Positions 4,682 through 25,512 of a stretch of 59,201 bases of DNA are shown here, in pieces. The stretch is from an uncultured Pseudomonadota bacterium. GTDB lineage: Bacteria > Myxococcota_A > UBA796 > SXON01. The position numbers were made by a program, and so were the translations under genes. The notes beneath the pieces are model-generated. The model ran no database searches. It saw only the letters and a list, made by a program, of their open reading frames with translations, and had not been told where the DNA came from. The stretch is taken from NCBI GenBank assembly GCA_903921785.1, contig CAIXRH010000340.1:1-59201 (forward strand), written 5' to 3'. The first letter of the stretch is position 1. Each line of letters begins with the position of its first letter.

Positions 4682-5827
4682 ATGACCAGGCGTGCAGCCG
4701 TCGTCGACATCGGCTCCGGCTCCACCACCCTCGCGGTGTTCGAGGCGGGCAACGGGGGCTTTCTTGACCGCATCCACCAGGAGGGGGCGTCGCTTCGGCT
4801 CATCGAGAAGCTCGACGCGCGCGGGAGGCTCCCCGCGGCCGCCAGCCGCGAGCTGCTCACCACGGTAGACGGGTTCCTCGACCGCGCCCACGCCGAAGGC
4901 GCAGCCCAGGTGGAGATCGTGGCCACAAGCGCGATGCGCGACGCCGGCAATGGGGAGGCGCTCGTGGCGAAGCTCGGGGCGAGGCCGAACGTCCGCGCGA
5001 GGCTGGTCACGGGGGAGGAGGAGGGCCGCCTCGCCGCCCACACCGCCATGTGCACGCTGCCCTTCCGCAGCGGCGTCGTGCTGGACCTGGGCGGCGGCAG
5101 CCTCCAGCTCGTCCTCGTGCGCGCCCGGAAGGTGATCTCGTCGGTGTCGCTGCCCCTCGGCGCCCTCCGCCTCTACGACCAGTTCCTCTTCCGCCAGGAG
5201 GTCCCCTCCGCCGACGCGCTCTGCGCGCTCCGCCATCACGTCCTGGAGCAGCTCCGCACCATCCCCTGGCTGCGCAGCTGCGGCGAGTCGCTGGTGGCCG
5301 TCGGCGGCAGCGTGCGCACCCTCGCCAAGATCGAGCGCAAACGCCAGGGCTGGCCGGTCGGTCACGGCCACGGCTACCGATTGGACGGCGAGGCGCTCCT
5401 CGACGCCTACGAGCGCCTGAGCCGCGCCAGCCCGCGCGAACGTACGGAGACGCCCGGGCTGCCCGCCCACCGGGTGGACACGATCGTCACCGCGGCGCTC
5501 ACCCTCTCCACCGTCCTCCGGTTCGGCGGGTTCGGGGCGGTGCACCTCTCCACCTACGGCATCCGGGAGGGCGTGGCGTTCCGCGCGCTCTTCGGGGAAG
5601 CACCGATCAGCGATCCCGGCGGTGCCGGGCTCCGCGGCCGGCTGCGCGTCGTCCCCCTCGATCGCCCCCCGGCCGCCCCGGGGCTCACCCTCCGCGAACG
5701 CAGGCTCTACGCCGCAGCGATGGACCGCCCGATCGCCTGGCTGCTCGACAAGCCGATCCAGGGCTTCTGGCAGGAGGAGGTGCTGCGGGTGGCGCGCGTG
5801 CTGGAAGCCGAACGATCGCTGCGCTGA
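4682..5827 (+). CDS. Ppx/GppA family exopolyphosphatase / pppGpp phosphohydrolase
   Basis: ASKHA-fold phosphatase of 381 residues. Visible motifs are the N-terminal phosphate loop VVDIGSGSTTLAVFEAG, the LVTGEEEGRLA block with catalytic Glu, and VLDLGGGSLQL. Family members remove terminal phosphate from polyphosphate or from guanosine pentaphosphate; the length is that of the short Ppx/GppA forms without the C-terminal HD domain. Its 3' end faces ppk1 across 22 nt, so the two opposing polyphosphate activities are convergent neighbours. Ppx versus GppA cannot be decided from sequence alone, but the ppk1 partner favours polyphosphate. Confidence 0.88.
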   Translation: MTRRAAVVDIGSGSTTLAVFEAGNGGFLDRIHQEGASLRLIEKLDARGRLPAAASRELLTTVDGFLDRAHAEGAAQVEIVATSAMRDAGNGEALVAKLGARPNVRARLVTGEEEGRLAAHTAMCTLPFRSGVVLDLGGGSLQLVLVRARKVISSVSLPLGALRLYDQFLFRQEVPSADALCALRHHVLEQLRTIPWLRSCGESLVAVGGSVRTLAKIERKRQGWPVGHGHGYRLDGEALLDAYERLSRASPRERTETPGLPAHRVDTIVTAALTLSTVLRFGGFGAVHLSTYGIREGVAFRALFGEAPISDPGGAGLRGRLRVVPLDRPPAAPGLTLRERRLYAAAMDRPIAWLLDKPIQGFWQEEVLRVARVLEAERSLR

Positions 5828-5849: not shown

Positions 5850-7904
5850 CTACTTCCGCCGCGCCTTCCGCATCAGCACGTCCTGGCTGCGGACCGGCTC
5901 GCCCACGGTGGGCACCCGCTCGTTGCTGCCGTCCGCGAGCAGGCGGGACGCCTTCACGTTGTCCGAGAGCTGAAGGGCCAGGTAGCCGTCGAGCTCCCGA
6001 CGGAGGCGGGCGTCCTGGATCGGGAAGGCCACCTCGATGCGCCCACCGAGGTTGCGCGGCATCCAGTCGGCCGAGCTCAGCCACACCTCGGGTTCGCCGC
6101 CGTTCTCGAAGCGGAACAGGCGTACGTGCTCCAAGAACCGGTCCACGATGCGCACCGCGGAGATGGTCTCCGACAGCCCCTTCACCCCCGGACGCAGGCA
6201 GCACACCCCGCGGATGATGAGCTGGATCGGCACCCCGGCCTTCGAGGCCGCGTAGAGCTCGCCGATGAGCTCGGGGTCGACCAGGGAATTGAGCTTCACC
6301 ACGATCCGCGCGGGCCGTCCGGCCTCGGCGTTCTCCACCTCCCGACGGATTCGCCGCACCAGCTCGTTGCGCAGGTGCATGGGCGCCACGAGCAGCTCCC
6401 CGAAGATGTCAGGGCGGGCGTAACCGGTGAGCAGGTTGAACAACCACGTCACGTCCTCGCCGATGCCCTCCCGCGCGGTGAACAGGCTGAAGTCGGCGTA
6501 GGTCTGGGCGTTGGACTCGTTGTAGTTGCCCGTGGCGAGGTGCACGTAGCGGCGGAGGCCATGCGGGGTTTTGCGTACCACCAGCGCCGCCTTGGCGTGG
6601 GTCTTGTACCCGGTGACCCCGTAGACCACGTGGGCGCCGGCGTTCTCCAGCCGCTTGGCCCACGCGATGTTCGACTCTTCGTTGAACCGGGCGCGGAGCT
6701 CCACCAACGCGGCCACCGACTTGCCGTTCTGCGCCGCGTTCACCAGGGCCTGGGCGATGCGGCTGTCGCGGGACATCCGGTAGAGGGTGATCTTGATGGC
6801 CAGCACGTCGGGGTCGGAGGCGGCGGCGTCGAGGAAGCGCACCACGTGGTCGAAGGTCTGGTACGGGTGGTGTACGAGCACGTCCCCCTTGTCGATCGCC
6901 GCGAACACGTCGCGCGAGCGGCTGAAGCGCGCGACGTGGGTCGGCGTCCACGGGCGGAACTTCAGGTCGGGCCGGTCGAGCATGCCGTAGAGCTGGCCGA
7001 GGTCGGCGAACGCGGTGAAGCCGGTCGCTTCGTACAGATCGTCGGGGTCGAGCTCGAGCTCGCGCTTGATGCGGTTGAGCTGCTCGGCGCTCACCTCGGG
7101 CTCGTATTGCAGGCGGATCGCGGCCCCGAGGCGCCGATTGCGCACGGCGACCTCGATGGTGCGGAGGAGGTCGTCGGGGCGGTCTTCGTCGAGGTCGAGC
7201 TCGGCGTCGCGGCTCACCCGGATGGCCCCGGCGCGGAGCACGGCGGCCTGGCGGAAGAGCAGGTCGAGGTGCTGACGGATCGCGTCTTCGAGCAGCGCCA
7301 CGTGCACCTCCCCGTCGGGCGCGGGCAACGCGAGGAAGCGGGGGAGCACGGCGGCGGGGATGTGGAGGATGCAGGTCTCGGCCGGCGCGAGGTCGTCCTC
7401 GTCGTCGTGCGGCTCCAGCTCCAACATCAGGCAGAGCGCCCGGTTGGCGATGTGGGGGAAGGGGTGCGCCGGGTCGATGGCGATGGGGGTGATGACCGGC
7501 AAGGCGTTGGCGAGGAACCACTTCCTCAGCCACGTCTCTTGTTCGGCGCTCCACTGCCCGCGCCGCTTGAGGTGGATCCCCTCGGAGGCCAGCGCCGGCA
7601 GCAGCTCATCCAGCATCAACCGGTGCTGTTCCGCCACCAGCTCATGGGCGCGCCGCGAGACCGCGCGGATCACCTCCCGGGGCGCCAGCCCGTCCGGGCC
7701 GGGAGTGGTGACGCCGGCGTCCACCTGCCGCCACACCCCCGCCACCCGGACCATGAAGAACTCATCGAGGTTCGAGGAGAAGATCGCCAGGAAGCGCAGC
7801 CGCTCCAAGAGCGGCACGCCCGGGTCCTTCGCCTCCTCCAGCACCCGACTGTTGAACTCCAGCCAGCTCAGCTCCCGATTGATCAGCTCGCGGTGCGCGG
7901 TCAT
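5850..7904 (-). CDS. ppk1: Polyphosphate kinase 1
   Basis: Makes long-chain polyphosphate from ATP, reversibly, usually at the membrane. I start it at ATG 7904 (684 residues) because the product then begins with the family's N-terminal RELINRELSWLEFNSRVLEEA; 36 upstream codons do not fit. The autophosphorylated His region is present (YVHLATGNYNESNA, followed by YADFSLFT), as are the second conserved His (DRFLEHVRLFRFENGG) and the LSSADWMPRNL block. Convergent with the ppx-like gene and divergent from a response-regulator gene 114 nt away. A phosphate-stress link with the PstS-like locus downstream is attractive but inferred. Confidence 0.96.
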   Translation of the reverse strand: MTAHRELINRELSWLEFNSRVLEEAKDPGVPLLERLRFLAIFSSNLDEFFMVRVAGVWRQVDAGVTTPGPDGLAPREVIRAVSRRAHELVAEQHRLMLDELLPALASEGIHLKRRGQWSAEQETWLRKWFLANALPVITPIAIDPAHPFPHIANRALCLMLELEPHDDEDDLAPAETCILHIPAAVLPRFLALPAPDGEVHVALLEDAIRQHLDLLFRQAAVLRAGAIRVSRDAELDLDEDRPDDLLRTIEVAVRNRRLGAAIRLQYEPEVSAEQLNRIKRELELDPDDLYEATGFTAFADLGQLYGMLDRPDLKFRPWTPTHVARFSRSRDVFAAIDKGDVLVHHPYQTFDHVVRFLDAAASDPDVLAIKITLYRMSRDSRIAQALVNAAQNGKSVAALVELRARFNEESNIAWAKRLENAGAHVVYGVTGYKTHAKAALVVRKTPHGLRRYVHLATGNYNESNAQTYADFSLFTAREGIGEDVTWLFNLLTGYARPDIFGELLVAPMHLRNELVRRIRREVENAEAGRPARIVVKLNSLVDPELIGELYAASKAGVPIQLIIRGVCCLRPGVKGLSETISAVRIVDRFLEHVRLFRFENGGEPEVWLSSADWMPRNLGGRIEVAFPIQDARLRRELDGYLALQLSDNVKASRLLADGSNERVPTVGEPVRSQDVLMRKARRK

Positions 7905-8017
7905 GGGAGCCAATGTCACGCGGCGGAGCACTCCGCCACGGCTCGTGTCGCATTCGTCGTGCAGGCTTCGCACGGTCGTCACCGGAGCGTCAGACGGGCG
8001 GGTGAGATTCAACGGGT

Positions 8018-8800: not shown

Positions 8801-10684
8801 CTACAACGTCCGCAAGAACGCCTCGAGATCGTCAAGTTCGTCCTCGCTCAACGAGGAGGTGTCGCCCATCGCGCCGGTGCGGGTCTCCGCCAGCACGTCG
8901 CCGAGGGTCCCGGCGTGCCCGTCGTGGAAGTAGGGCGCAGTCGCGGCGATCCCCACCAACGACGGCGTGTCGACCGCCTCGAGCTCGAACATCGAGTGGG
9001 GAGCCCCATCGGTGTACCGCTCGCCGGAATGGCACTCCGAGCACCGGACGTCCGGGCGGTTGAACAGGGCGCGCCCGCGCTCGCTCGCCGCGCTGGAGGC
9101 TCCCTTTTCGGGGTGATCGATGTCGCGCGTCCAGTCGAGGAAGGCGGCGATCGCCGCGAAGTCGGCGTCGATGCCCCCCACCCCGCCGAGGCGCTCCTGG
9201 CTGGTGAGCCGCGCCTCCTCCGCCACCGTGGGCACCTCGGCCACCCAGGTGAACGGCGCGGTCAGCGAGATACGCCCGGCCAACGACGGCGTCTGGAAGG
9301 CGCCGGTGTCCACGGGCCAGGTCATCCCGTCGTTGCGGCCCTCGAAGTGGCAGGAGGAGCACGACAAGCCCGCGCTGGGTAGCGTGATCCTCGGGTTGTT
9401 CGCCGCGTAGAACAGGCTGCGCCCGAGCTCCACCTCCGCGTCGAGCCGCGCCTCGGTGAGCAGCACCGACGGTCCCGCGACGAACGACGCTTCGGGAACG
9501 GCCCCGGGCTCCAGCTCCCCGAGCGCGTCCGTGAGGGGGGCGAGCGCGATCGGCGCCGCCGAGCGGTTCAGGAAGGTGTGGGCCCACACCTCGCCGTCCG
9601 CCGCCAGCGCGACTTCGCGCGGACCGCCCGTCAGCCCGACCGCCAGCGTGGGCGCGAGGGTGAACCCCCCGTCGCCGTCCGCCCGCCGGTCCGGGGTGGC
9701 GTCCAGCACCAGGACATGGTCCGCGGCTTCGGCGGTCGCCAGGAGCAGATCGCCGGCAAAGCGGGCGCTGGAGAGGTAGCCCCGCACCACCGCGCCGTCG
9801 CCCGCGGGGCTCCACGCCTCGCCGTAGAGGACCTCGGCAACGGGACCGAGCGGGCGCCCAGCGGCGTCCACGTCCAGCAGCGCGATGCCCGGGTTGTTCG
9901 GCGACAACCCGAGCCCGAGTTTTGCGTACTTCGCCGCTTCGTCCCCGTGGCCGCCGCCGGGCACCGACTGGTCGTCCACCCACAGCCCCGGCACCGCGAG
10001 GCGGTCTCCCTCGGCGTCGAAGGCCGGGTCGCCGGTGAGCCGGCGAGCGAACGGCTGGTCGCCCGTGCGCGCCGCGCCGAGGATCGTCGGGAACGCGACG
10101 AGGGTCGGGGTGGGGTCGGGCTCGGTCAGGTCGATCCACGACAGCCCACCGCCCACGACAGCCGAGACGTAGAGCGAATCTTCGCTCGGATGCACCGCCA
10201 ACCACGACGGCCGCCCCGCCACCGCGAAGCTGCGGAGCGGCTGGAGGTCCCCGTCGAGCTCCACGACCTCGTCCTGCGTAGAGAGCGCCACCCACACCCG
10301 CTCGCCGTCGGCGCTGGCCGCGATGCCCAGCGGTTCGCTCCCGGTGGCGACACGCTCCGCCTCCACCAGCTCCGATCCGTCGAGCGCGAGGACGGCCAGC
10401 GCCCGCTCGGCACGCAGGGTCACCACCCAGTGGTCGCCCACCCGCGCCACCCGCGTCGGCTCCCCGCCCAGCTGAAGTTCACTCACGATCCCCGTGAGGG
10501 GGTCCAGGCGGCTCACCACGCCTTCGTTGGGCGAGGCGAAGACGAGCCCCTCGTCGACGCCAACCTCCCCCGCCACCGGCGACGAATCGTCGCGCGGCGT
10601 CGTACAGGCGAGCGCTGCGACAGCGAACGCCGGACCGAAGAGGCCGACGGGAGCCCGTCGCTCGCGGGTGGGTCCGTTGAGCAT
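8801..10684 (-). CDS. Lipoprotein: beta-propeller fused to dihaem cytochrome c peroxidase/MauG-like domain
   Basis: Secreted lipoprotein of 627 residues (lipobox VAALAC). Residues about 45-400 are a YVTN/WD-like propeller (repeats such as GLVFASPNEGVVSRLDPL and DGERVWVALS). Residues about 410-627 resemble dihaem cytochrome c peroxidases, with two c-type haem sites, C442-S-S-C445-H446 and C548-S-E-C551-H552, and a typical TPSL(A/V)GI block after each. Family members reduce peroxide or oxidise a partner protein in the periplasm. Haem ligands other than the CXXCH histidines cannot be fixed by eye. A propeller on the same chain suggests substrate docking. Monocistronic. Confidence 0.82.
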   Translation of the reverse strand: MLNGPTRERRAPVGLFGPAFAVAALACTTPRDDSSPVAGEVGVDEGLVFASPNEGVVSRLDPLTGIVSELQLGGEPTRVARVGDHWVVTLRAERALAVLALDGSELVEAERVATGSEPLGIAASADGERVWVALSTQDEVVELDGDLQPLRSFAVAGRPSWLAVHPSEDSLYVSAVVGGGLSWIDLTEPDPTPTLVAFPTILGAARTGDQPFARRLTGDPAFDAEGDRLAVPGLWVDDQSVPGGGHGDEAAKYAKLGLGLSPNNPGIALLDVDAAGRPLGPVAEVLYGEAWSPAGDGAVVRGYLSSARFAGDLLLATAEAADHVLVLDATPDRRADGDGGFTLAPTLAVGLTGGPREVALAADGEVWAHTFLNRSAAPIALAPLTDALGELEPGAVPEASFVAGPSVLLTEARLDAEVELGRSLFYAANNPRITLPSAGLSCSSCHFEGRNDGMTWPVDTGAFQTPSLAGRISLTAPFTWVAEVPTVAEEARLTSQERLGGVGGIDADFAAIAAFLDWTRDIDHPEKGASSAASERGRALFNRPDVRCSECHSGERYTDGAPHSMFELEAVDTPSLVGIAATAPYFHDGHAGTLGDVLAETRTGAMGDTSSLSEDELDDLEAFLRTL

Positions 10685-10763: not shown

Positions 10764-11789
10764 TTACTCGACCTCGACGCGGTACCCGCCGAACGTGACC
10801 CCACCGCGCTCGTCGCGGAGCACCACACCGAGCCAGACCTCGCCGGCCGCGTCTGGCGCGGTCCACGTGTCGGCCACAGAAGCCTCCGACTCTTCCCCCG
10901 ATCGTCCGGCGCGCGCGAGCGCGAGGTCCCCACCGGTGGTGAACCATGTCGCGGAGATCGCTTCCCGACGGGTGGTCAGCTCGCCAGCCACCGCGTCCCA
11001 CACCACGTAGGACTCGGCGCCGCCGCAGCCGACCGGCGTGGTGCAGTCGTCCGGGCAGCTCTCGAGGTCCTCGTCCGCCGAGCAGACACCGTCGCCACAC
11101 TCGCCTTCGGCGGGGCACTCCGCCCACCCCACGCCGAGCTCCACCGCGGCCCCGGCCTTCACCACCGGCGGCGTGCCCGCCCCGTCGGCCGGGACCTCCA
11201 CCGGGCCATCGCCCGCGTCCAGCGTCAATCCGGCGATCTCGGGGTTCACGTTGTCGTGGTAGCGGGTGTTCCAGGCGACGTAGGTCTCCTGCGTCACATT
11301 GGCGAGCCCGCAGCGCAGCCGCGCCGCCACCAGCGTGCTGAGCTCGCCGTCCAGGAAGGTCACCGCCGGCTGGTAGTAGCCGCCCGTGACGTCCGGATCG
11401 GTCGGACGACCGCCGCTGGTCTCCCCCTCTTCGGCGGGCGGCGCGCTGGGGCCGAAGCGGCTGCACCCGTCGTCCGGGAGGGTGGCGGTCACCGTGAGGC
11501 CGGTGCCGATGTCCGCGAGGTCCGCCGAGCCGGCGTCCAGGCAGCTGCTGGCCACCGGACCGAGCTCGGCGAGCGGGCGGGGCGAGGTACAGAACGACCA
11601 GTCGAGCGGGGCGTCGGAGAGCGCGCCAGAGGCGTCAGCGTAGAGCGCCGTGAAGTCCACGGTGCCCCCGGCTTCCGCCTCGGGCGGGTCGGCGCGCACC
11701 GCGAGCACTCGCGGCGTGTCCACGAGCGAGGTCGGGTCGCTGAGCGGGCTGGTACACGCGGCGAGGAAGAGGAGGATCGACGCCCGCAT
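10764..11789 (-). CDS. Lipoprotein of the TonB locus, last gene
   Basis: Lipoprotein of 341 residues; signal peptide with lipobox LAAC (C13). Mostly beta-rich sequence without a family I recognise. Near residue 235 it has a short Cys-rich CGDGVCSADEDLESCPDDC motif of the calcium- or disulfide-stabilised kind seen in myxobacterial surface proteins. The start codon overlaps the TonB-dependent receptor stop as TGATG, so it is translationally coupled to that receptor. By position it may be a surface-exposed or periplasmic partner of the receptor, like lipoproteins in other TonB systems; that is inference. Confidence 0.75.
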   Translation of the reverse strand: MRASILLFLAACTSPLSDPTSLVDTPRVLAVRADPPEAEAGGTVDFTALYADASGALSDAPLDWSFCTSPRPLAELGPVASSCLDAGSADLADIGTGLTVTATLPDDGCSRFGPSAPPAEEGETSGGRPTDPDVTGGYYQPAVTFLDGELSTLVAARLRCGLANVTQETYVAWNTRYHDNVNPEIAGLTLDAGDGPVEVPADGAGTPPVVKAGAAVELGVGWAECPAEGECGDGVCSADEDLESCPDDCTTPVGCGGAESYVVWDAVAGELTTRREAISATWFTTGGDLALARAGRSGEESEASVADTWTAPDAAGEVWLGVVLRDERGGVTFGGYRVEVE

Positions 11790-14434
11790 CAGAAGCTCCA
11801 CCGCAGGCCGAGCACCGGGAGGATCGGCAAGCCGGTGATCGCCCCCTGCTCGGAGTAGTCCGCGTTGTAGGTGTACTCCTCGGTGTTCTGCGCGTTGGTC
11901 ACGTTCTGGACCTCCAGCGAGACCTCGAGCTTCGACGACTTGATCTCGAACGTCCGCGCGAGCCGGACGTCGGCCTGGAAGAACGTCGGCAGCCGGATGT
12001 CGTTCTCGCCACCGAAGAGCGGCTGGTAGAGGTCGCGGCGATCGTCGTAGTAGGCGCCGGCCACCGACGAACGCGGGTAGCCGGTGGCCACGCGGGCGCG
12101 GACGCCGGCTTCGAGCTCCCAAGGGAGCTCGTAGCCAACGAGCGCGGTGAGGACGTGCCGCTGATCGTAGTCGCTGGCGCGCCAAGCTGCGTCCTCGGTG
12201 TCCTTCCGCTCGCTCCAGGCCAGCGTGTAGCTCACCCAGCCGGTGAACCCGGCCGTCGCCTCCAGGCGGATCATCGACTGCACGCCGTAGGTGCGCCCGC
12301 TGCCGCTCGCGACCAGGGCCTCGCCCGCCTTCGGCTGCTCGGCGGTGCTGCGCATCGCGAGGTCCTCGGAGGTGGTGTAGAACCCGGTCACCTCGGCGGA
12401 CAAGGTCGGGATCGGCTTGAGGCCGCCGCCGAAGACGTAGTGCGTGCCGGCCGTGGCCGGGAGGGAGGGGTTCCCGAAGGACGCGGACAGGTCCGTCGGC
12501 GCCGGCTGGGCCCCGTACTCGCCGTAGGCGGCGGTGAGGTAGCCGACCTCGGAGGGCGCCCACCGGATGGCCAGGCGAGGTTCGGCGCGGAAGTCCGCGA
12601 GGAAGAGCCCGTAGGTCGGGCTGATGCCGACCTGGGGGAGCGCGCGGCTCACGCTCCGCGCGTAGGGGTCGAGGCGGAGCCCGGGGACGAGGTGAAGCGT
12701 GTCCTTGAACAGGCTGACGTCCGCCTCGGCGTAGGGCGCCACGTCGACCGTCATCACCGACCAGGCGTCGGCGGAGATCTGGTCGGGCGGGGGCTGGCCG
12801 AAAACCCGGGTGTCGCCTTCGCGGGCAGGGAGGCCGAGGGAGCCGGTGCGGGTCACGTCGGCGCCGGCCACCAACGCGTCCACGCCGCCTTCGAGGTTCA
12901 GCCAGGTCAATGCGCGGGCGCGGTAGTTGGCGCGGAGCCCGGCCAGCGTCGCAGCCGTGTCCACCGTGGTGGCGATCGCGCCGTAGCTCGCCGACTGGCT
13001 GTCCTGATCCGCGCCCGCGAACACCGTGGCGGCCACGGTGCTCCCGTCCCCGAGATCATGGGCATAACGCGCGTATATCCGCTGGAACTGGAGCGACTTC
13101 TTCTCCGTCGCCGTACGCGCCGGGTCTTCGCTGGGCGCGGTGGACGACGTCTGGTCCGTGGACACCAGCGCGGTCACGTCCAGGGTCTCACCGGGGCCGA
13201 GGTCGAGCCCGACCCGCGCCTGGGCGTCCGCGTAGTGGGGGATCGGGAAGTAGTCCTCGACCTCCGGGGCGAACGCAGCGAGGAGCGGGCCGGCGTAGCC
13301 GTAGCGCCCGGCGATCCCCAGGTTCACCGTCTTGGAGATCGGGCCGTGGATGGAGCCCGCGGCGTCGTACAGGTCCGCGCTCACCGAGCCGTGGAGCCCG
13401 TCGTCGAAGCGGTTGGTGCTCCCGGAGACCAGGCCGCCGAGGCCGCGGCCATAGGCGGCGCCGTAGCCGCCCGGCACCAGCTCCACGCTCTTCACGAAGT
13501 CCGGGCCGACGACCGACCGCAAGCCGCCGTCGTGGTACAGCCGCGGCACCGGCACCCCGTCAAGGTACACGCCGGTGTCGCCGGGGGCGGCGCCCCAGAC
13601 CACCAGCGCGCCCGTGCCGAGTGAAGCGCGAGCCACGCCCGGCAGGTTCTCGACGACGCGGAGCACATCACCCTGGGTTCCCGGCACCTTCCGCGCTTCG
13701 TCCGCCGGAATCTCCGTGGAGATCGCCTGCCGCTTGAGCGCCGGCGCGGAGACGAGGATCTCCATGTCGTCCGCTTCTTCGCCCTCCTCCGCCAGCTCCA
13801 CCTCGTAGACCGTGTCCAGGCGTTCACCGGCCACGAACGTCTCTTCGGTGGAGAGGGCCGTGAGCCGCTCGCCCTGGAGCGTGACCGCCAACGGACCCGG
13901 CGCGACGTCGGGGAACTCGAAGTGGCCGTCGGCGTCGGTGACGGCGCTGCGGCCGTCGGCCAGGGACACGGTCACGCCCGCGATGGGCGTGTGCGCGAAC
14001 CGGTCCTTCACCACGCCGCTGTAGATCGCGGTGGTGGGCACGGCCGCGCGCTCCACGAAGTCGTACCGGTAAAGGATGCGGATACGCGACGGCTTGCCGT
14101 CCACCTCGGCCGGGCTGAACACGAACTGTTTCGCCGCGGCGACCGCAGCGGCGTCGAACGCCGCGCCGGCCGTCTCCTGCACCACGGCGTCCTCGACGGT
14201 GCCGTCGGCGCGGATCGTGACCGCGAGCACCACCGAGCCGGTGTGACCGGTCTCTTCCGGCGGGAACGGCGCTTCCACGAAGGTGACCAGCGCGGGGGGC
14301 TTGGTGAGCTGGGGACCGGCGGGGGGCGGGGCAGCCGGAGCGGCGACCGCGATCGGCGACGCCGCGAGCCCGCAGAGCAGGGCAAGGGCCGCGCCACCGC
14401 GGGCTGCGGGGCGAAGGACGGGGTGCGCACGCAT
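11789..14434 (-). CDS. TonB-dependent receptor with N-terminal TonB-C-like domain
   Basis: Outer-membrane active transporter of 881 residues. A signal peptide (about 1-32) is followed by a TonB C-terminal-like domain (about 45-125: PPEETGHTGSVVLAVTIRA, then AAKQFVFSPAEVDG). Next come a carboxypeptidase-regulatory-like beta domain (about 135-210), a possible TonB box (DMEILVSAP), a plug (about 235-350; VVENLPGVARASLG, GVYLDGVPVP) and the barrel, ending in the outer-membrane signature GLRWSF. The start at 14434 overlaps the tonB stop (TGATG). The substrate is unknown; the locus context suggests the same ligand as the PstS-like protein. An energising-type domain on the receptor itself is unusual. 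Confidence 0.92.
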   Translation of the reverse strand: MRAHPVLRPAARGGAALALLCGLAASPIAVAAPAAPPPAGPQLTKPPALVTFVEAPFPPEETGHTGSVVLAVTIRADGTVEDAVVQETAGAAFDAAAVAAAKQFVFSPAEVDGKPSRIRILYRYDFVERAAVPTTAIYSGVVKDRFAHTPIAGVTVSLADGRSAVTDADGHFEFPDVAPGPLAVTLQGERLTALSTEETFVAGERLDTVYEVELAEEGEEADDMEILVSAPALKRQAISTEIPADEARKVPGTQGDVLRVVENLPGVARASLGTGALVVWGAAPGDTGVYLDGVPVPRLYHDGGLRSVVGPDFVKSVELVPGGYGAAYGRGLGGLVSGSTNRFDDGLHGSVSADLYDAAGSIHGPISKTVNLGIAGRYGYAGPLLAAFAPEVEDYFPIPHYADAQARVGLDLGPGETLDVTALVSTDQTSSTAPSEDPARTATEKKSLQFQRIYARYAHDLGDGSTVAATVFAGADQDSQSASYGAIATTVDTAATLAGLRANYRARALTWLNLEGGVDALVAGADVTRTGSLGLPAREGDTRVFGQPPPDQISADAWSVMTVDVAPYAEADVSLFKDTLHLVPGLRLDPYARSVSRALPQVGISPTYGLFLADFRAEPRLAIRWAPSEVGYLTAAYGEYGAQPAPTDLSASFGNPSLPATAGTHYVFGGGLKPIPTLSAEVTGFYTTSEDLAMRSTAEQPKAGEALVASGSGRTYGVQSMIRLEATAGFTGWVSYTLAWSERKDTEDAAWRASDYDQRHVLTALVGYELPWELEAGVRARVATGYPRSSVAGAYYDDRRDLYQPLFGGENDIRLPTFFQADVRLARTFEIKSSKLEVSLEVQNVTNAQNTEEYTYNADYSEQGAITGLPILPVLGLRWSF

Positions 14435-15099
14435 CAGAGGGTGAACCGGACGGCGACGGTGAAGGTGGACGGCGAAGGCACCCCGCAACGGGTGGCCGGA
14501 GTGAAGCTCGCGCCCTTGAGCGCGGCGACCGCGTTCTCGTCGAGCCCGTTGCCGAGGCCCTCGATGACCTTGGCGTCCACGACCTGCCCGGCGGCGTCGA
14601 GGTGCAGCTCCACCCGCACCTTGCCCTCGATGCCGGCGGCGCGGGCTTCGTCGGTGTAGGCGGGGCGCGGCATGTTGGTGGCCTTGGCCTTCACCTCGGC
14701 CTCGGTGCAGCCGGACTCGGGCTCCGGCGCCTTGGCGGTGAGCTTCTTGACGGTCTGGCGAACGGGCTCGGCCGCCTTGACCGGCGCCCCGACCGCGATG
14801 CCGCCCGCGCTGTCCGCCGAGCCCATCGCGAAGCCGAAGTCCGGCGCCGGGGGGGGCGCCTCGGGAGCGGCCTCGGGCGGCGGCGCGGCGGCCGGACGCG
14901 GCGGCGCCTTGGCGGCCGGGGGCTCGGGCTTGGGCTCCGGCGGCTTCGGCTTCTCCTTCTTCGGCTGCTCAAAGGTCTGCATCTCGACGATCTGCACGTC
15001 GGGAGGCGGCGGGGTCTTCACCGCGTTGAGCACCAGGGCACCCACGGCGTGGAAGGCGAAGCTCCCGACGTAGACCCAATGCATCGGGCGCAGCGCCAT
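14434..15099 (-). CDS. tonB: Energy transducer TonB
   Basis: Inner-membrane-anchored transducer of 221 residues. It has one N-terminal membrane helix (about 6-26), a Pro-Lys then Pro-Ala-rich periplasm-spanning linker (about 40-90), and a C-terminal TonB domain (about 140-221) with AYTDEARAAGIEGKVRVELHLD. It links the ExbB-ExbD motor to outer-membrane receptors. A GGGGAG site precedes ATG 15099, 6 nt after exbD. Being encoded between exbD and the receptor, it is probably dedicated to this system. Confidence 0.95.
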   Translation of the reverse strand: MALRPMHWVYVGSFAFHAVGALVLNAVKTPPPPDVQIVEMQTFEQPKKEKPKPPEPKPEPPAAKAPPRPAAAPPPEAAPEAPPPAPDFGFAMGSADSAGGIAVGAPVKAAEPVRQTVKKLTAKAPEPESGCTEAEVKAKATNMPRPAYTDEARAAGIEGKVRVELHLDAAGQVVDAKVIEGLGNGLDENAVAALKGASFTPATRCGVPSPSTFTVAVRFTL

Positions 15100-15105
15100 G
15101 GTCGG

Positions 15106-15522
15106 CTACTCCCCGCGCTCGACGGCGATGGCGAAGTGGGTGATCCCGGCGGCCTTCGCGAGGTCGAGAACGCGGACAACCCGGCCGTGTTGGGCCTTGG
15201 TGTCCCCGCTGACGACGACGTTCACGTCCGGATTGTCGGTGTGGGCGCCTTCCAGCTTCTTGGTGAGGTCGTCGTCGGAGAGCGGCGTGTCGTTCCACCC
15301 ATACGACCCGTCTTCCTTGATGGAGACGATCGCCACGGACGGCTGCGCGCGGTCGCCGTTGGCGGCCTTCGGCAGGTCCACGTTCATGGTCTGCGACACG
15401 ATGAAGTTCGCCGACACCATCATGATGACCAGCAGCACGAGCATGATGTCGACCATCGGGGTCACGTTGATCCCGGTGATCCCGCCGCGCTTCTTCCCGC
15501 CGGAGGAGGTGGTACCGGCCAT
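15106..15522 (-). CDS. exbD: ExbD/TolR biopolymer transport protein
   Basis: Small bitopic inner-membrane protein of 138 residues. It has a cytoplasmic Lys-rich N-tail, one membrane helix with the proton-carrying Asp (TPMVDIMLVLLVIMMV, D25), and a periplasmic ExbD domain. With ExbB it forms the proton-driven motor. Three nucleotides separate it from exbB. Confidence 0.95.
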   Translation of the reverse strand: MAGTTSSGGKKRGGITGINVTPMVDIMLVLLVIMMVSANFIVSQTMNVDLPKAANGDRAQPSVAIVSIKEDGSYGWNDTPLSDDDLTKKLEGAHTDNPDVNVVVSGDTKAQHGRVVRVLDLAKAAGITHFAIAVERGE

Positions 15523-15525
15523 GGC

Positions 15526-16254
15526 TCAGCCCGCCTGCTCAGGGGTGGTGGAGAGGGCGGCGTTGGAGTCGGCGGCCACAGGCGCGTGCACTTCCCCGTG
15601 GACGCGGATCACCGCGCCGCGCTCGTGGGTCTCGATCCACGCCGAGACCAGCTTGCCAAGGGAGGAGACATCCGCCTCGATCTTTCCGATCTTGGCCTGC
15701 ACCAGGTTGTAGGCGATGACCGCCGGGAGCGCGACGAAGATGCCAACGCCGGTGGCGATGAGCGCTTCGGCGATGCCGCTCATGACCTCGCCCATCGCGC
15801 CGGCCCGCGCGGCGGCGGTGCCCAGGTTGTGGAAGGCCACGATGACGCCGATGACCGTCCCGAACAGCCCGATGAACGGGGAGTTGTTTCCGATGGTGCC
15901 CAGGAAGTTCGTCCCCGTCTCGATGTCGCCGCGCACCCGGGACAGCTCGGACTCCAGCGCGTCGGCGAACGCGCTGGCGCCGCCTTCACGGAACGCCATG
16001 GCCCGGGCGACGACGCCGCCCTCCACCGTTTGACTGTCACGCAAAAGGGTCTCGGCCTGGTCGGGATGGTTGGCGCGCAAGGCGCCGAGCACCTTCTCCC
16101 GAAGGGCGTCGCCGCCCCCGCGGCCGTTGCGCCAGAAGAAGTACACCCGCTCCGCAACCACGCCGAGCGAGATGACCGAGAGGGCGAGGAGCAGCCACAG
16201 CACCCAGGAGCTGCCGAGGAGGGCGACCTTGAGGAGCGCGTCGACGATGTTCAT
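15526..16254 (-). CDS. exbB: ExbB/TolQ/MotA proton-channel family protein
   Basis: Inner-membrane motor subunit of 242 residues with three membrane helices: about 14-35, then a pair in the second half containing the family core NNSPFIGLFGTVIGVIVAFHNL and GIFVALPAVIAYNL. Its start overlaps the upstream lipoprotein stop as ATGA at 16251-16254. TolQ is the paralogous alternative, but the adjacent TonB and receptor favour ExbB function. Confidence 0.94.
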   Translation of the reverse strand: MNIVDALLKVALLGSSWVLWLLLALSVISLGVVAERVYFFWRNGRGGGDALREKVLGALRANHPDQAETLLRDSQTVEGGVVARAMAFREGGASAFADALESELSRVRGDIETGTNFLGTIGNNSPFIGLFGTVIGVIVAFHNLGTAAARAGAMGEVMSGIAEALIATGVGIFVALPAVIAYNLVQAKIGKIEADVSSLGKLVSAWIETHERGAVIRVHGEVHAPVAADSNAALSTTPEQAG

Positions 16255-17195
16255 GGGAGGGTGACCGTGGTGAGGAAGGTTCCGAGGGACTCGCCGCCGT
16301 CGGCCTGATCGGCGACGAGCTCCCCGCCGCCGAGGAGAGTGGTCTCCACGGGGTGGGTGCCATCGTCGGCGTCGGTGCGGACGTACTCAGCGAGGGAGAA
16401 GTTCACATACGACTGGCCGCAGGGGTCGTGGAGATCGGCGTACACCTGGTAGTCGCCGGCCGGCGGCTCGCCGGGGAAGATGAGCGACTCGAGGTTCATC
16501 GCGTCGATCGTGCAGTCCGCGTTGGAGTCGCGGGAGAGGCGGCCGGTGGTGGCGTCCTTTACCACCTCCTTGGGGACCTCGCTGCCGTCCACGTCGCCCG
16601 TCGTGGGGGCGTCGTAGCGGACGACCTTTCCGCTCGGGGTCACCACGACGAGGTCGAGGTCCACCGGCGTATCCCAACGCAACGAGATCACGGCGTTCTG
16701 CGGGGTCACTTCGTCGCTACACGCGGCGAGGTTGTTCTCCGAGTAGTCGGGGAGCACACAGATGGGGCTGTCGTACTCCGGTCCGGGGTGACCCTCCTCG
16801 TCGAACGCCACGAAGCGCAGGGTCTGCAGCCCATACGGAACCTCCGGGAGGAAGTCCACGGTCACCTTGAAGATGAGCGCGTTGTCCTGGGTCACGTCGG
16901 GCCCCTGGACCGGCATCACCCAGTAGCCGTCGCTGATGTCCGTCGCGGCCACGGCCACGCTGAACGCTTCCGGAGAAGCGAGGCCGCTGTAGCCGATGTT
17001 CCCGACGCCCTGGGTCACGATGTAGGTCTTGCCGGCCGCGGACACGATCGTCGGCGCCGTCGCGCCGTCGTCCACCGGGAGCTCGCCGGACTTGAACGTG
17101 GCGCCCCGCACCTGGATCGCCTCGCCGCGACCCGCGGAATATTCCGTAGATGGTTCACACGCTGCGAACGCGAGGAGCAGCACGGCGGGCGTCAT
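16251..17195 (-). CDS. DUF2135/YfaP-like lipoprotein of the TonB locus
   Basis: Lipoprotein of 314 residues (lipobox AFAAC). The C-terminal half carries a VISLRWDTPVDLDLVVVTPSGKVV-type strand and a later GDYQVYADLHDPC strand. I recognise these as a DUF2135/YfaP-like beta-sandwich with Asp-rich loops that could bind calcium. No catalytic motif. It begins at the porin stop (TGATG at 17193-17197) and ends inside exbB (ATGA), so it is tightly coupled to both and probably stoichiometric with them. The role within the uptake system is unknown. Confidence 0.75.
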   Translation of the reverse strand: MTPAVLLLAFAACEPSTEYSAGRGEAIQVRGATFKSGELPVDDGATAPTIVSAAGKTYIVTQGVGNIGYSGLASPEAFSVAVAATDISDGYWVMPVQGPDVTQDNALIFKVTVDFLPEVPYGLQTLRFVAFDEEGHPGPEYDSPICVLPDYSENNLAACSDEVTPQNAVISLRWDTPVDLDLVVVTPSGKVVRYDAPTTGDVDGSEVPKEVVKDATTGRLSRDSNADCTIDAMNLESLIFPGEPPAGDYQVYADLHDPCGQSYVNFSLAEYVRTDADDGTHPVETTLLGGGELVADQADGGESLGTFLTTVTLP

Positions 17196-18712
17196 CAGAA
17201 CTCCCCCTGGAGGCGGACGGTCCACTGGTCGTTCGCGAGGTCCACCGGGGCGCCGGTCACGTCGCGCGACAGGTGGTCCGACACATAGTCGTACTGCACC
17301 ATCAGCCGGCCGAAGCCCGGCAGGCGGGCGCCGGCGATGGGCGAGAGGGTGAGCACCGACGTGTCCAGCGGGATGAACTCGCCACGCCGCGCATCGAAGA
17401 GGTCACTCGAGGGGTCGTAGCTGTCGACGCGGAAGCCGACGAGCGCCCAGGGGGTGACCTCTTGCGTGGCGCCCGCGTTCCAGCCGAACTCCCGGACGTC
17501 GTAGCCGGTGCTCACCGGATCGGCGGTGAACCAGTTGCGATCCAGGTTCGTGGCCATGGTGGCCTCGCCGTAGACCCGGCTCCAGCCCAGCGGCGTGTGG
17601 AAGGCGACACTCAGGTCGCCGCCCACCGCCCAGCGGGTGAACGTCGTGGAGCTCGTCGCGGCCTGGCCGATGACGGTGCTCAGCTCGTCGAGGGTGACGA
17701 ACCCGTCCTGGTTGCTGTCCGACCAGGCGAGCTGCGACTTGGTGGCGGGGGTTCCCTCGTGCAGACCGGTGCCCTGCAGGAACGAGACACCGCCCGCGAA
17801 CTTCACCGCCTCCTCCTTCCCGAAGTCGGCGCCGAGGCGACCAACGAACGTCGGCTCGGAGGCGAGCGGCAGCGTGCTGGTGGAGGGGTTGTCGCTCACC
17901 GGCTGGCCGTTGGTGGCGGCGACCGCGTAGCGGAGCGGCCCAAGCGCGCCCCCCAACTGAGCGCCCACGTCCGGCTCTCCGGCGAAGAACGCCCGGGAGG
18001 CCAGCGAGCGCTCCATGAACACCCGCGAGCGGCTGCCCTCGGTGAGCTCCGCCCCGAACGGGACGTCGCTGAGGCCCACGAGGAGCTGCGCGGGCGAGGG
18101 CCGGTCGTCCTTGCCCGGAACGAAGAGCGCAAGCTCCGCGTGCCGGAGGTCGAGCGCGGGGCCGCGGACGGTGTTGGCGTCGATCTCCATGGTCGCGCGG
18201 GCGAAGTGGAAAGAACGCTCCACCTTCAGGCGAGCCCGGCGGACCAGGAAGCGGTCCTGGTTCAGCGGATCGCCGTCCACGTCCACCTCGTCTTCACTCT
18301 GCTCAGAGGAGAAGTACTGGACCTGTGCGTAGCCGGAGACCTTCAGGTCCAGGGCGCCGAGCCACGCGGCAGAGCCGACCTTGGCGGCGGGCTCGACGGC
18401 GGGCGTGGCCGAAGCGGGCGTGGCCGGAGCCGTCGGCGCGGGGGCGGGCGTGGCCGGAGCTGCAGGCGGCACCGGCGCCGAGGGCGCGGCCGGAGCGGGC
18501 GTCGCGGGCGGCGTCGTCGGGGCGGGCGGGGCCGGAGTCGGCGCAGGAGGAGGAGGCGCAGGCGGCGTCGGAGGCGGCGTTGTCACCGTAGAGGGGGCCG
18601 CGTCGATCTCCATCTCCTCGTCGTCACCGGCCCGCGCGGGCGCCGACACCGAGAGCGCGACGAGCGTCACAGTCAGGGGAGCGAACTTGCGCCAGGGTCG
18701 GGGGAGGTGCAC
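17195..18712 (-). CDS. Phosphate-selective porin O/P-like outer-membrane barrel with Pro/Ala linker
   Basis: 505-residue outer-membrane protein. Signal peptide about 1-29, then about 80 residues of Pro/Ala/Thr-rich linker, then a barrel that begins LKVSGYAQVQYF and has the porin O/P-type pattern RFLVRRARLKVERSF, LLVGLSDVPFG and ERSLASRAF. It ends in the outer-membrane signature LQGEF. OprP/OprO relatives conduct phosphate or polyphosphate; this specificity is plausible because a PstS-like gene is upstream, but the phosphate-binding Arg ladder cannot be judged by eye. GTG start at 18712. The long periplasmic linker is atypical for this family. Confidence 0.82.
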   Translation of the reverse strand: MHLPRPWRKFAPLTVTLVALSVSAPARAGDDEEMEIDAAPSTVTTPPPTPPAPPPPAPTPAPPAPTTPPATPAPAAPSAPVPPAAPATPAPAPTAPATPASATPAVEPAAKVGSAAWLGALDLKVSGYAQVQYFSSEQSEDEVDVDGDPLNQDRFLVRRARLKVERSFHFARATMEIDANTVRGPALDLRHAELALFVPGKDDRPSPAQLLVGLSDVPFGAELTEGSRSRVFMERSLASRAFFAGEPDVGAQLGGALGPLRYAVAATNGQPVSDNPSTSTLPLASEPTFVGRLGADFGKEEAVKFAGGVSFLQGTGLHEGTPATKSQLAWSDSNQDGFVTLDELSTVIGQAATSSTTFTRWAVGGDLSVAFHTPLGWSRVYGEATMATNLDRNWFTADPVSTGYDVREFGWNAGATQEVTPWALVGFRVDSYDPSSDLFDARRGEFIPLDTSVLTLSPIAGARLPGFGRLMVQYDYVSDHLSRDVTGAPVDLANDQWTVRLQGEF

Positions 18713-18824
18713 GGCGGGTCGTCCAGGGTTGGGGGAGCGGGGTACGGCGCAGCGGGAGCGTCGTTCGCAACTGGCGTGCCAGCATGAAAGCCGGCGTATG
18801 ACGAGCGTCCGAAGACGCAGGGCC

Positions 18825-18859
18825 CGCGGATCCAGGACGGGAAAGTCCGTGGATCCGCG
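18825..18859 (-). terminator. Strong intercistronic hairpin between lipoprotein and porin genes
   Basis: CGCGGATCCAGGAC (18825-18838) pairs with GTCC-G-TGGATCCGCG (18845-18859) around a 6-nt GGGAAA loop; only one base is bulged. It starts 13 nt after the lipoprotein stop and lies about 110 nt before the porin start. There is no U-tract, so it may be a partial terminator, processing site or 3' stabiliser that sets a different expression level for the two halves of the locus. Confidence 0.6.
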
Positions 18860-18871
18860 AGCCGCGAGGGG

Positions 18872-19231
18872 TTAGACGGGGGGGAGGTCCGTGCCGGGCA
18901 CCCAGGTGCTCGACGGGATGCGCGTCGCGTTGTCGAACTTCACATAGCTGGCGTTGGAGCACTGGTTGTAGAACTTCAACGAGTCGCCTTCCGCGGAGGT
19001 CGGCAGCGCGCAGTCCCAGCAGGTGCCTTCGTCCCACGCCACCCAGCACTCTTCGGCCGTGTCGCCGGTGTCGGCGGTGTCCGTGTCGGAGGTGTCGGTG
19101 TCGGCGGTGTCCGTGTCGGTGTCGACCCCGGTGTCGGTGTCGTCCGACCCGCTGGTGTCAGGGTCCGTGCCCTCGTCCTTGCAGGCGACGAAGGAGAGCG
19201 CGGCGAGGGTGATGAAGAGGGAGGTGCGCAT
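18872..19231 (-). CDS. Asp-Thr-repeat lipoprotein with Cys-containing C-terminal domain
   Basis: 119-residue lipoprotein (lipobox SFVAC). After the lipid anchor comes a tether of about 40 residues made of Asp-Thr dipeptides, then a compact 55-residue domain with four Cys (ECWVAWDEGTCWDCALPT, then NQC) that suggests two disulfides. Its start is 1 nt after the stop of the PstS-like gene, so the two are co-translated. It could hold the PstS-like protein at the cell surface or membrane; this is inference from position and shape. No family recognised. Confidence 0.72.
   Translation of the reverse strand: MRTSLFITLAALSFVACKDEGTDPDTSGSDDTDTGVDTDTDTADTDTSDTDTADTGDTAEECWVAWDEGTCWDCALPTSAEGDSLKFYNQCSNASYVKFDNATRIPSSTWVPGTDLPPV
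19065..19150 (-). repeat. Tandem repeat encoding DT units
   Basis: On the plus strand, repeated GTGTCGGCG/GTGTCCGTGTCGG units; on the minus strand these encode the Asp-Thr tether of the lipoprotein. Likely length-variable. Confidence 0.65.
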
Positions 19232-19232
19232 C

Positions 19233-20453
19233 TCAGTGAGCCTCACAGAAGCCGAGGCGACAGACATCGCTCCCGGAGCAGGGGTTGGCATCGTCGCAGG
19301 ACTGGCACGTCGTGCCGCCCGTGTTCGTGTAGTCGAAGTAGCAGTCGCACGGCTCGGCCGGCTCCGAGGCGTAGGTCGGGCCGAGGTCGAGGTCGCGGGC
19401 CACGTGCATGGCGCACATCGGGACCAGCTTCTTCTTCGTCGCGGCCTCGGTGATGGTCTCACTCGCGCCGGCGGGCTGGGCGACCCCGCCGAAGTAGTCG
19501 CCGAGCACCTTCACATCGGGGTCCGCGTACGTGCCCGCGCCGGAGCCTTCGTACGCGTAGAAGTCGACGTTGGCCCACACGGCGTACTGGCCGCTGCGGA
19601 CGTTCGCCTTGTCAAACGTCGTGGCGTCGGAGTCGGGCCAGTAGCCCACGTCCTGCCCCGGGGCCTGCCAGGCGAGGTTGCGGACCACGTCACGGTGACC
19701 ATCCGCCGTGGAGGCGGTGGCGAAGCCGATGCCCGCTTCGGGATCGGTGAGCGCGGCGAGGTTGTTCACCAGGGTGGAACCGCCGCCCGCGTCGGTGCCG
19801 ATGTACTTGTTCGTCGGGAGGCTGGAGGCCAGCGAGAACATCAGCTGGGTGCCCGAGTCTTCGTTGCGGCGCTGGAAGTAGGTCGCGTCGTCCTTGGTCC
19901 AGGGCTCGATGCCGGCGGTCGCGCCGAAGCCGTAGAGCAGGTAGAACGCCTCCGCGCTGATCACCTGCTGGGTGGAGCCGACCGGCACGAGGGCGGCCGC
20001 GGGATTCACCGCGCCCTGCACCTCGACCAGGTCGCTGAGGAGGCTGTCGTCGTAGTCGATGAGCGGGCAGTTCTCGGCCTTCACGTCGGTGAAGGCGAAG
20101 TCCACCGACACCCCTTCGAGGGGGAGGTTGCAGGCGGTCTTGGCGCCGCTGGTGGGGTCCCAGTAGTTCGCGGAGCCGGTGAGCGTGGGCGAGGCGAGCC
20201 CCACCATCGCGTACGGCCCGGTGCAGGCGCCCTGGTCCTGGTAGACGACGAAGACCGGATCGTCGGCGTTGGCGAGGACGATCGCCATCTCACCGATGAG
20301 GTCACGGGGGCCGGTGGCGCCCGCGCCGTAGATGATGGGGGCACCGCCGGAGATGCTGTCACAATCGGGGGTGTCGGCGTGCGCCGCGCCGCTGACGGCG
20401 AGCGCCGTCAGGAGCGACAGGGCCCCGAACACACGAGGAGCGAGCTGAGTCAC
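19233..20453 (-). CDS. PstS-like substrate-binding protein with Cys-rich C-terminal tail
   Basis: 406-residue exported protein. GTG 20453 follows a good GGAGG site; the signal peptide ends near SGAAHA. The mature part has the PBP-type-2 phosphate-binding hallmarks: GAGATGPRDLIGE at the start and RRNEDSGTQLMF (the R-x-x-SGT phosphate loop) in the middle. The last about 45 residues form a Cys-rich knot (CDCYF, CQSCDD, CSGSDVCRLGFC). PstS normally feeds PstCAB, but no permease or ATPase gene is nearby; instead a porin, ExbBD, TonB and a receptor follow on the same strand. The first gene of the locus. Confidence 0.85.
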   Translation of the reverse strand: MTQLAPRVFGALSLLTALAVSGAAHADTPDCDSISGGAPIIYGAGATGPRDLIGEMAIVLANADDPVFVVYQDQGACTGPYAMVGLASPTLTGSANYWDPTSGAKTACNLPLEGVSVDFAFTDVKAENCPLIDYDDSLLSDLVEVQGAVNPAAALVPVGSTQQVISAEAFYLLYGFGATAGIEPWTKDDATYFQRRNEDSGTQLMFSLASSLPTNKYIGTDAGGGSTLVNNLAALTDPEAGIGFATASTADGHRDVVRNLAWQAPGQDVGYWPDSDATTFDKANVRSGQYAVWANVDFYAYEGSGAGTYADPDVKVLGDYFGGVAQPAGASETITEAATKKKLVPMCAMHVARDLDLGPTYASEPAEPCDCYFDYTNTGGTTCQSCDDANPCSGSDVCRLGFCEAH

Positions 20454-24295: not shown

Positions 24296-24438
24296 GAACC
24301 ACGCGCCGGCGGGTGAATCACGCTGAACCACCGCGCCCGCGCCCTCCATACTTCTGTGGATAGCCGGCCTACTCCGCCGTAACTGACTCAAGGACCTCCC
24401 CGCGCCGCCCGATGGGAACGCAGCCCGTCGGAGGCCCG

Positions 24439-25512
24439 ATGCTCATCCTCTCCGCGCTCCTCGTCTCGCAGCCGGCCTTCGCGGTGCCCATCCCAGTGGG
24501 CGACGACGCCAGCCTCGACGTCGGGGGCCTCGTGCAGACCCAGGCGGTCGTCACCGAGGCTGGCGCGCCCGACGGCACGTCCGCGGGCCTCGACCTGTTC
24601 GTGCGCCGCGCCCGCCTCGTGGTCAACGGCACCCTCGGCAAACACTGGGCGTTCACCTTCGTGACCGACAGCCCCAACCTCGGCAAGGGCGGCGACTGGA
24701 CGGGGCGGATCCTGGTGCAAGACGCCCTGGTCTCGGCGAAGGTGGCCCGTGAGCTCACGGTGGACACCGGGCTCATCCTCCTGCCGTTCGGCCACCACGG
24801 GATGCAGTCGGCCGGCACCCTCGGCACACTCGACTACCACAGCGCCGAGCTGCTCTATCCGCTGAACACCACCCAGACCTGGCGGGACGTGGGCTTCCAG
24901 CTCCGCGGGCTCGCGTTCAAGGATCGCCTCCACTATCGGGTGGGGGTCTTCAATGGCCTCGAGGGTGGGCCAGCGATCCCCGACACGGACCAGGGCACCA
25001 CCAACCCCAAGGACGCGCCCCGCCTCGCCGGCCAGCTCCGCGTGAACGTCCTCGGCGTGGAAGACCGGATGTACCTGGGCGGGATCTACTTCGCAGACAA
25101 GCCCATGCTCTCCATCGGCGCGAGCGGGATCGTCCAGCCCGACGCGGTCGGCTCGGGCGCCGATCTCGCGCCGTGGGTGGGCCTCAACGGGGATGTTTTC
25201 GCCGACGTGCCGATCGGGAAGAACCAGGAGCTCATCGCCCAGGCCGCCGTGGTGCACTACGCGGCCGGCGAAGGCGCCGCGACCTCCGGGACCGGCGGCT
25301 GGGTGGAGCTCGGCTACCGCATCGGCCTCGTGGAGCCGGTGGTGAGCGCCGAGACCTTCGCCTCCGACGCCGAGGCCGCCGATTCCCGCGCCTACAAGTT
25401 CGGGGTGAACACCTGGATCAAACGGCATACTGCCAATGTGAAGGCGGAGGTCGCCATCACCCAGCTCGGGGACCTTGCGGTGGCGCCGGAGGGGATCACC
25501 GGCACGCTCTAG
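24439..25512 (+). CDS. Porin O/P-like outer-membrane protein
   Basis: 357-residue barrel protein. I chose ATG 24439 since GGAGG lies 4 nt before it and the product then opens with a clean signal peptide (MLILSALLVSQPAFA). The mature part starts SLDVGGLVQTQAV and shows the porin O/P pattern: LDLFVRRARLVVNGTLG, LVQDALVSAKV, TGLILLPFGHHG, VGFQLRGLAF. It is shorter than the porin of the TonB locus and lacks its Pro/Ala linker. Phosphate or other anion selectivity is possible but untested. Confidence 0.8.
   Translation: MLILSALLVSQPAFAVPIPVGDDASLDVGGLVQTQAVVTEAGAPDGTSAGLDLFVRRARLVVNGTLGKHWAFTFVTDSPNLGKGGDWTGRILVQDALVSAKVARELTVDTGLILLPFGHHGMQSAGTLGTLDYHSAELLYPLNTTQTWRDVGFQLRGLAFKDRLHYRVGVFNGLEGGPAIPDTDQGTTNPKDAPRLAGQLRVNVLGVEDRMYLGGIYFADKPMLSIGASGIVQPDAVGSGADLAPWVGLNGDVFADVPIGKNQELIAQAAVVHYAAGEGAATSGTGGWVELGYRIGLVEPVVSAETFASDAEAADSRAYKFGVNTWIKRHTANVKAEVAITQLGDLAVAPEGITGTL

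Follow-up and report, generated by a model that had tools for sequence, protein, structure and literature searches.

A conserved myxobacterial gene block uniting a PstS-like protein with a TonB motor and receptor: a candidate module for taking up phosphate or a related oxyanion through the outer membrane

Nine consecutive minus-strand genes, running from 20453 to 10764 of the 59,201-nucleotide stretch of DNA analyzed here (the window), encode a PstS-like protein (PSTS), a small lipoprotein (LP2), a porin O/P-like barrel (OPR), a second lipoprotein (LP4), ExbB, ExbD, TonB, a TonB-dependent receptor (TBDR), and a third lipoprotein (LP9). These genes form a genuinely conserved unit and are not grouped by chance. 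On the basis of fold, binding pocket, and gene context, we consider it probable, at roughly 0.6, that the block is a module for the TonB-dependent acquisition, across the outer membrane, of phosphate or of a related oxyanion or phosphorus compound; the ligand, the direction of transport, the protein locations, and the hand-over between components are those that we infer for such a module.

The gene calls and Pfam matches agree with the initial annotation, which had listed nine same-strand genes that include ExbB, ExbD, TonB, and a receptor. Its remark that most are joined by overlaps of 1–4 nt is roughly right; with the longest starts, the gaps along the block are +1, +159, −31, −4, +3, +6, −55, and −10, spanning −55 to +159. 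PSTS (19233..20453) is a 406-residue protein with a GTG start, a Sec signal peptide, and a Cys-rich C-terminal tail. LP2 (18872..19231; 119 residues) has an Asp/Thr-rich linker and the lipobox MRTSLFITLAALSFVAC, and OPR (17195..18712; 505 residues) has a Pro/Ala-rich N-terminal linker. LP4 (16251..17225) ends in a DUF2135/PPC-like domain. By Pfam domains, the TonB-ExbBD-type gene set is complete: ExbB (15526..16254; MotA_ExbB, E = 2e-29), ExbD (15106..15522; ExbD, E = 2e-31), in which the membrane Asp is kept in VTPMVDIMLVLLVIMM, TonB (14434..15099), composed of a Pro-rich linker and a TonB_C domain (E = 8e-17), and the plug-barrel receptor TBDR (11789..14488), in which N-terminal TonB_C and CarboxypepD_reg domains precede the plug (Plug, E = 8e-8) and barrel. 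LP9 (10764..11798) is a lipoprotein modeled by AlphaFold as Ig-like beta domains (pLDDT 92). Directly upstream of the block, on the same strand, lies a lipoprotein gene with four MopE-type metal-binding motifs (20886-22814), and farther upstream is a plus-strand gene for a second Porin_O_P protein (24412..25512; E = 5e-7, above the cut-off). The gene directly after the block (8801-10684) encodes a beta-propeller protein whose C-terminal domain is a MauG/MbnH-like cytochrome c; it was rejected as a tenth member because it does not adjoin the block in relatives.

Conservation of the block was examined by a pattern-based scan of one genome per species across 84,980 species. The patterns, which were derived from myxobacterial copies, retrieved 58 loci with PSTS relatives, all in Myxococcota or in metagenome-assembled genomes labeled delta/proteobacterium. 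Hosts of the block include the cultivated Minicystis rosea, Nannocystis exedens, Polyangium species, and Plesiocystis pacifica. A lack of co-occurrence in related genomes had been named beforehand as one finding that would refute the initial annotation, but the block recurs: of the 52 loci in which 3.5 kb or more of sequence follows PSTS, 41 have a porin or receptor on the same strand. The order PSTS-(LP2)-OPR-LP4-[ExbB-ExbD-TonB]-TBDR-LP9 is kept in all 25 long loci, defined as those that have a porin and 9 kb or more of sequence, and LP9 comes after TBDR in those that reach that far. An LP2 homologue at the matching place was detected in a minority of relatives. The motor is present in 14 of the 25 long loci and absent from 11; on the PSTS tree its presence is clustered, yet several changes are needed to explain it. 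Within the phylum, PSTS occurs in 52 of 379 genomes, and full-length LP4 and full-length LP9 (43 genomes each) are confined to these 52, with none in the other 327 (Fisher p = 3e-48, uncorrected for shared ancestry; E-value bounds for presence were placed at a clear gap in the score lists). Among genomes related to that of the window the block is patchy (PSTS gene in 6 of 58), a distribution that fits repeated loss or transfer. Additional copies were observed in the window's own genome, where contig C34 carries near its end a second PSTS-like gene (L003:10364-11578; 52% identical) without the rest of the block, and in L030:1-3474, where a small lipoprotein-like gene separates two tandem PSTS-like genes.

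The window copy of PSTS alone gave no match in sequence searches of Pfam, NCBIfam, or the PDB, and the Pfam model PBP_like_2 matches 2 of 48 family members (best E = 0.0036). An AlphaFold model built from an alignment of the 48 relatives has a mean pLDDT of 93.6. When its Foldseek matches were realigned with VIA-align, the top 38 PDB entries were PstS, phosphate-binding, or DING proteins, with Z scores from 26 (4ecf, the best match) to 17, as compared to about 15 for ModA and about 14 for sulfate-binding proteins. PstS chains make up four of the five PDB matches of the family profile, at E values of 0.1–0.9 that are weak alone, and hhalign relates the family to canonical myxobacterial PstS with 93% probability (E = 4e-7). 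The model thus indicates that PSTS has the two-lobed PstS fold, and the profile comparison agrees, bearing out the initial assignment of a phosphate-type binding protein. Despite this shared fold, PSTS is less than 20% identical to the PstS and DING proteins of PstSCAB systems, and it differs from them in an invariant DKxNVRDGxY-type segment and in its Cys-rich C-terminal tail, which is invariant in the family and unusual for a periplasmic PstS.

The aligned pocket of the window copy is T47-A76-D123-R196-S200-G201-T202. Six of these seven positions match the set T-S-D-R-S-G-T, which we take to be the phosphate contacts of E. coli PstS, and the two loops singled out by the initial annotation, which read GAGAT and R-x-x-x-SGT, do sit at phosphate-binding positions. 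PhoX of Xanthomonas citri makes its contacts through Ser34, Ser62, Asp80, Arg159, Gly164, Thr165, and Asn201 (PMC5439949). The pocket Arg does not vary across the 48 members, and many of them have the full contact set; canonical-pocket copies are spread across several lineages, solo genes included. Most relatives in the window's own clade have the pocket S-A-G-R-S-A-A, in which the Asp and the SGT loop are lost, whereas the window copy and its sister, from genome G011, carry the phosphate-type D and SGT. In a Polyangium/Kofleriaceae group the pocket reads D-S-A/I-R-K-S/G-T, with Lys replacing Ser. Either the ligand may have changed between subclades, or the window/G011 pair may have reverted to an ancestral pocket; the simplest common denominator of the pocket classes would be a shared anion-binding role. 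Because the pocket diverges in subclades, ligands may differ, and because it is not uniformly phosphate-like, the term phosphate cannot extend to all copies. The loss of Asp and SGT in most of the window copy's close relatives is counted against the proposed phosphate module.

The block itself contains no PstC, PstA, or PstB and thereby departs from PstSCAB systems. The window's genome carries a separate, complete pstSCAB-phoU with its own PstS on another contig, so PSTS is an extra binder. The initial annotation had noted that no ABC permease or ATPase is nearby. This is true of the 10 kb of the block in the window, but importers adjoin the block in several relatives. A PhoB-PhoR-PhoU-PstB-SBP-PstC cluster adjoins it in L038 and a PhoR-PstS-permease-PstB-PhoU cluster in L052, where the neighboring PstS is of the E. 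coli type. In L057 (at a contig end), L067, and L070, PhnD-PhnC-PhnE lies head-to-head with the PSTS-like gene, and in L066 it follows LP9; these PhnD proteins match models of phosphate/phosphite/phosphonate and "putative selenate" binding proteins. Pst or Phn clusters thus occur at six loci, representing about three independent lineages, in the 0.88 Mb examined, against a chance expectation of about 0.3 by our own estimate, which assumes two or three such clusters in a genome of about 8 Mb. Counted on the other side, at most loci no phosphate gene lies within 10 kb. Scanning the regions upstream of 57 PSTS-like genes for Pho boxes gave one at p ≤ 0.05, which is no signal and also stands against the phosphate module. 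Recurring response regulators, protein kinases, and generic ABC ATPases were discounted because they belong to large families. At L069:9953-14280, a solo PSTS-like gene has a molybdate-type permease (TIGR02141, above the cut-off) and an ATPase about 3 kb downstream.

In the window, an exopolyphosphatase (Ppx/GppA, 4682..5827, plus strand; Pfam Ppx-GppA, E = 5e-43) and a polyphosphate kinase (PPK1, 5850..8012, minus strand; Pfam PP_kinase domains) lie 3–6 kb from the block. Beside PPK1 is a response regulator with an OmpR/PhoB-type DNA-binding domain and a weak receiver domain (8018-8689). The two polyphosphate enzymes were rejected as parts of the system because they are not conserved beside the block in its nearest relative, G011, an absence that likewise counts against the phosphate module.

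The outer-membrane components resemble known families to different degrees. The initial annotation described OPR as an OprP-like barrel. The match of the window copy to Pfam Porin_O_P is weak (E = 0.0024; 17.6 bits, under the curated cut-off of 20.9), but 9 of 41 family members match at E ≤ 0.001 (best 1e-8) and to that extent resemble the phosphate and polyphosphate porins OprP and OprO. The OPR profile reached no porin in the PDB. Porin O/P proteins are not necessarily phosphate-selective, and this too was weighed against the phosphate module. The LP4 family alignment has conserved motifs of the form DLDLHVxxPxG...DSNAxC...ENVVW; one relative matches DUF2135 and one matches PPC, and a profile search of the PDB yielded nothing useful. 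Foldseek comparison of the LP9 model gave weak, low-TM matches to Ig-like/beta-sandwich proteins, with no SusD among the matches listed. ExbB scores under the equivalog cut-offs of both TolQ and ExbB in NCBIfam. Nearly all receptors from motor-bearing blocks carry the N-terminal TonB_C/CarboxypepD_reg extension, which is absent from most receptors of motor-less blocks; the receptors of L029 (4867-7647) and L063 carry the TonB_C extension in blocks without ExbBD-TonB.

Among named receptor families, TBDR gives weak matches to siderophore receptors (TIGR01783, 2e-9; 1fep, 2e-7), and its N-terminal TonB_C domain is MxcH-like. These features point to the alternative that survives best, which we nonetheless regard as unlikely: a TonB-receptor system for another nutrient, such as a metal chelate, heme, glycan, or peptide, with the PstS fold reused for a ligand that is not an oxyanion. 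The loss of key phosphate residues in PSTS subclades would suit such a role, as would the Fbp/2-aminoethylphosphonate-like ABC importer that is divergent from the block in G011 and scores far under the model cut-offs. Against it, the pocket Arg never varies and the window PSTS keeps both Asp and SGT, the importers beside relatives' blocks are of the Pst and Phn types, and siderophore or iron-regulator genes were not recognized in the neighborhoods examined.

The closest known arrangement is the PUMA3/Hxc phosphate-starvation locus of Pseudomonas aeruginosa, a region that encodes LapA (a phosphate-binding-type exoprotein), the uncharacterized ExbB2-ExbD2-TonB4, and the putative porin PA0696 and that is induced by phosphate starvation via PhoB and the sigma factor VreI (PMC7035377, PMC4971064, PMC4899797, PMC2729926). 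PA0696 is likened to OPR, and LapA to PSTS, by their descriptions. In PUMA3/Hxc they are accompanied by sigma/anti-sigma genes and by two kinds of secretion system, the Hxc type II system and a two-partner one, and LP4 and LP9 are not reported there; the myxobacterial block instead combines TBDR with two conserved lipoproteins and has no secretion system. Neither a VreAIR sigma system nor Hxc type II secretion genes were recognized between 478 and 27760 of the window. In Caulobacter, ElpS with the CC0171 receptor ties TonB receptors to phosphate starvation (PMC2996285), and PhoB controls TonB receptors thought to import phosphorus compounds (PMC11208175); as far as described there, the operons of these receptors include neither a PstS-fold protein nor a porin or a motor of their own. 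SusCD pairs resemble the long loci in that a receptor is followed by a conserved lipoprotein, but the Ig-like beta fold modeled for LP9 would differ from the helical fold of SusD, and TBDR scores well under the SusC model (TIGR04056, 13 bits against a cut-off of 368).

The extracellular location of LapA (PMC4899797) bears on a second alternative, that TBDR exports or displays a disulfide-rich PSTS as an extracellular scavenger like LapA or DING. The Cys-rich tail of PSTS, invariant in the family and atypical of periplasmic PstS proteins, is consistent with export, and the barrel model OMP_b-brl_4 matches 12 of 26 receptors. Oar has reportedly been found to export or display PopC in Myxococcus, which would be a precedent. 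However, the barrel match of the window TBDR falls under the curated cut-off, the block has no secretion genes, and a dedicated porin would serve no purpose in export; we hold this alternative to be distinctly improbable. Less plausible again, and in our judgment very unlikely, is a sensor in which ligand-loaded PSTS and TBDR report surface phosphate through the receptor's TonB_C/CarboxypepD_reg extension: that extension is nearly universal on motor-bearing receptors and solo PSTS copies lie near kinase genes at other loci, but the block has no sigma/anti-sigma pair, the extension is no Secretin/STN signaling domain, and transport better accounts for the porin and the motor.

Our preferred reading, an acquisition module, draws on the fixed gene order, the co-inheritance of LP4 and LP9, the PstS fold, the pocket of the window copy, and the adjoining Pst and Phn importers. 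It draws also on PPX and PPK1 near the window copy, on the separate pstSCAB-phoU, and on the precedents of the exbB2-exbD2-tonB4 locus and the PhoB-controlled Caulobacter receptors. In the proposed mechanism, TBDR, partnered by the lipoproteins LP4 and LP9, would take up the ligand, with force supplied by the dedicated ExbB-ExbD-TonB motor, and OPR would offer a second, passive path for anions. PSTS would capture the ligand in the periplasm, or possibly at the surface, and pass it on to an ABC importer of the inner membrane whose genes lie outside the block. The receiving importer may be PstSCAB in the window's genome and, in some relatives, the Pst or Phn-type importer that adjoins the block. 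The TonB-energized route for phosphate or another oxyanion that was proposed initially is thus upheld in part, by the conserved unit, the fold of a binder separate from pstSCAB-phoU, and the importers near some relatives; the divergent pockets keep the word phosphate from applying to every copy.

A broader interpretation is more tentative, and we rate it as possible rather than favored: the block may represent a phylum-wide family of TonB-energized outer-membrane importers centered on a PstS-fold binder. Its three or more pocket classes would serve different oxyanions or phosphorus compounds and deliver them to different inner-membrane ABC importers. From residue patterns, the putative classes would be the canonical phosphate type, the Asp-less S-A-G-R-S-A-A type, and the Lys-bearing D-S-A/I-R-K-S/G-T type. 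TonB systems, PstS, and OprP are known families; their fixed union with two conserved lipoproteins appears to be new. A literature search on myxobacteria and Bacteroidota, with most subscription journals outside its reach, found no description of the block, which has probably gone undescribed so far.

The usual view is that phosphate enters passively, through porins in the outer membrane. If the proposed module is correct, the presence of a TonB motor and a PstS-fold protein in one operon makes active uptake of phosphate, phosphonate, or another oxyanion across the outer membrane testable. A role could then also be suggested for the uncharacterized ExbB2-ExbD2-TonB4 of the P. aeruginosa phosphate-starvation locus.
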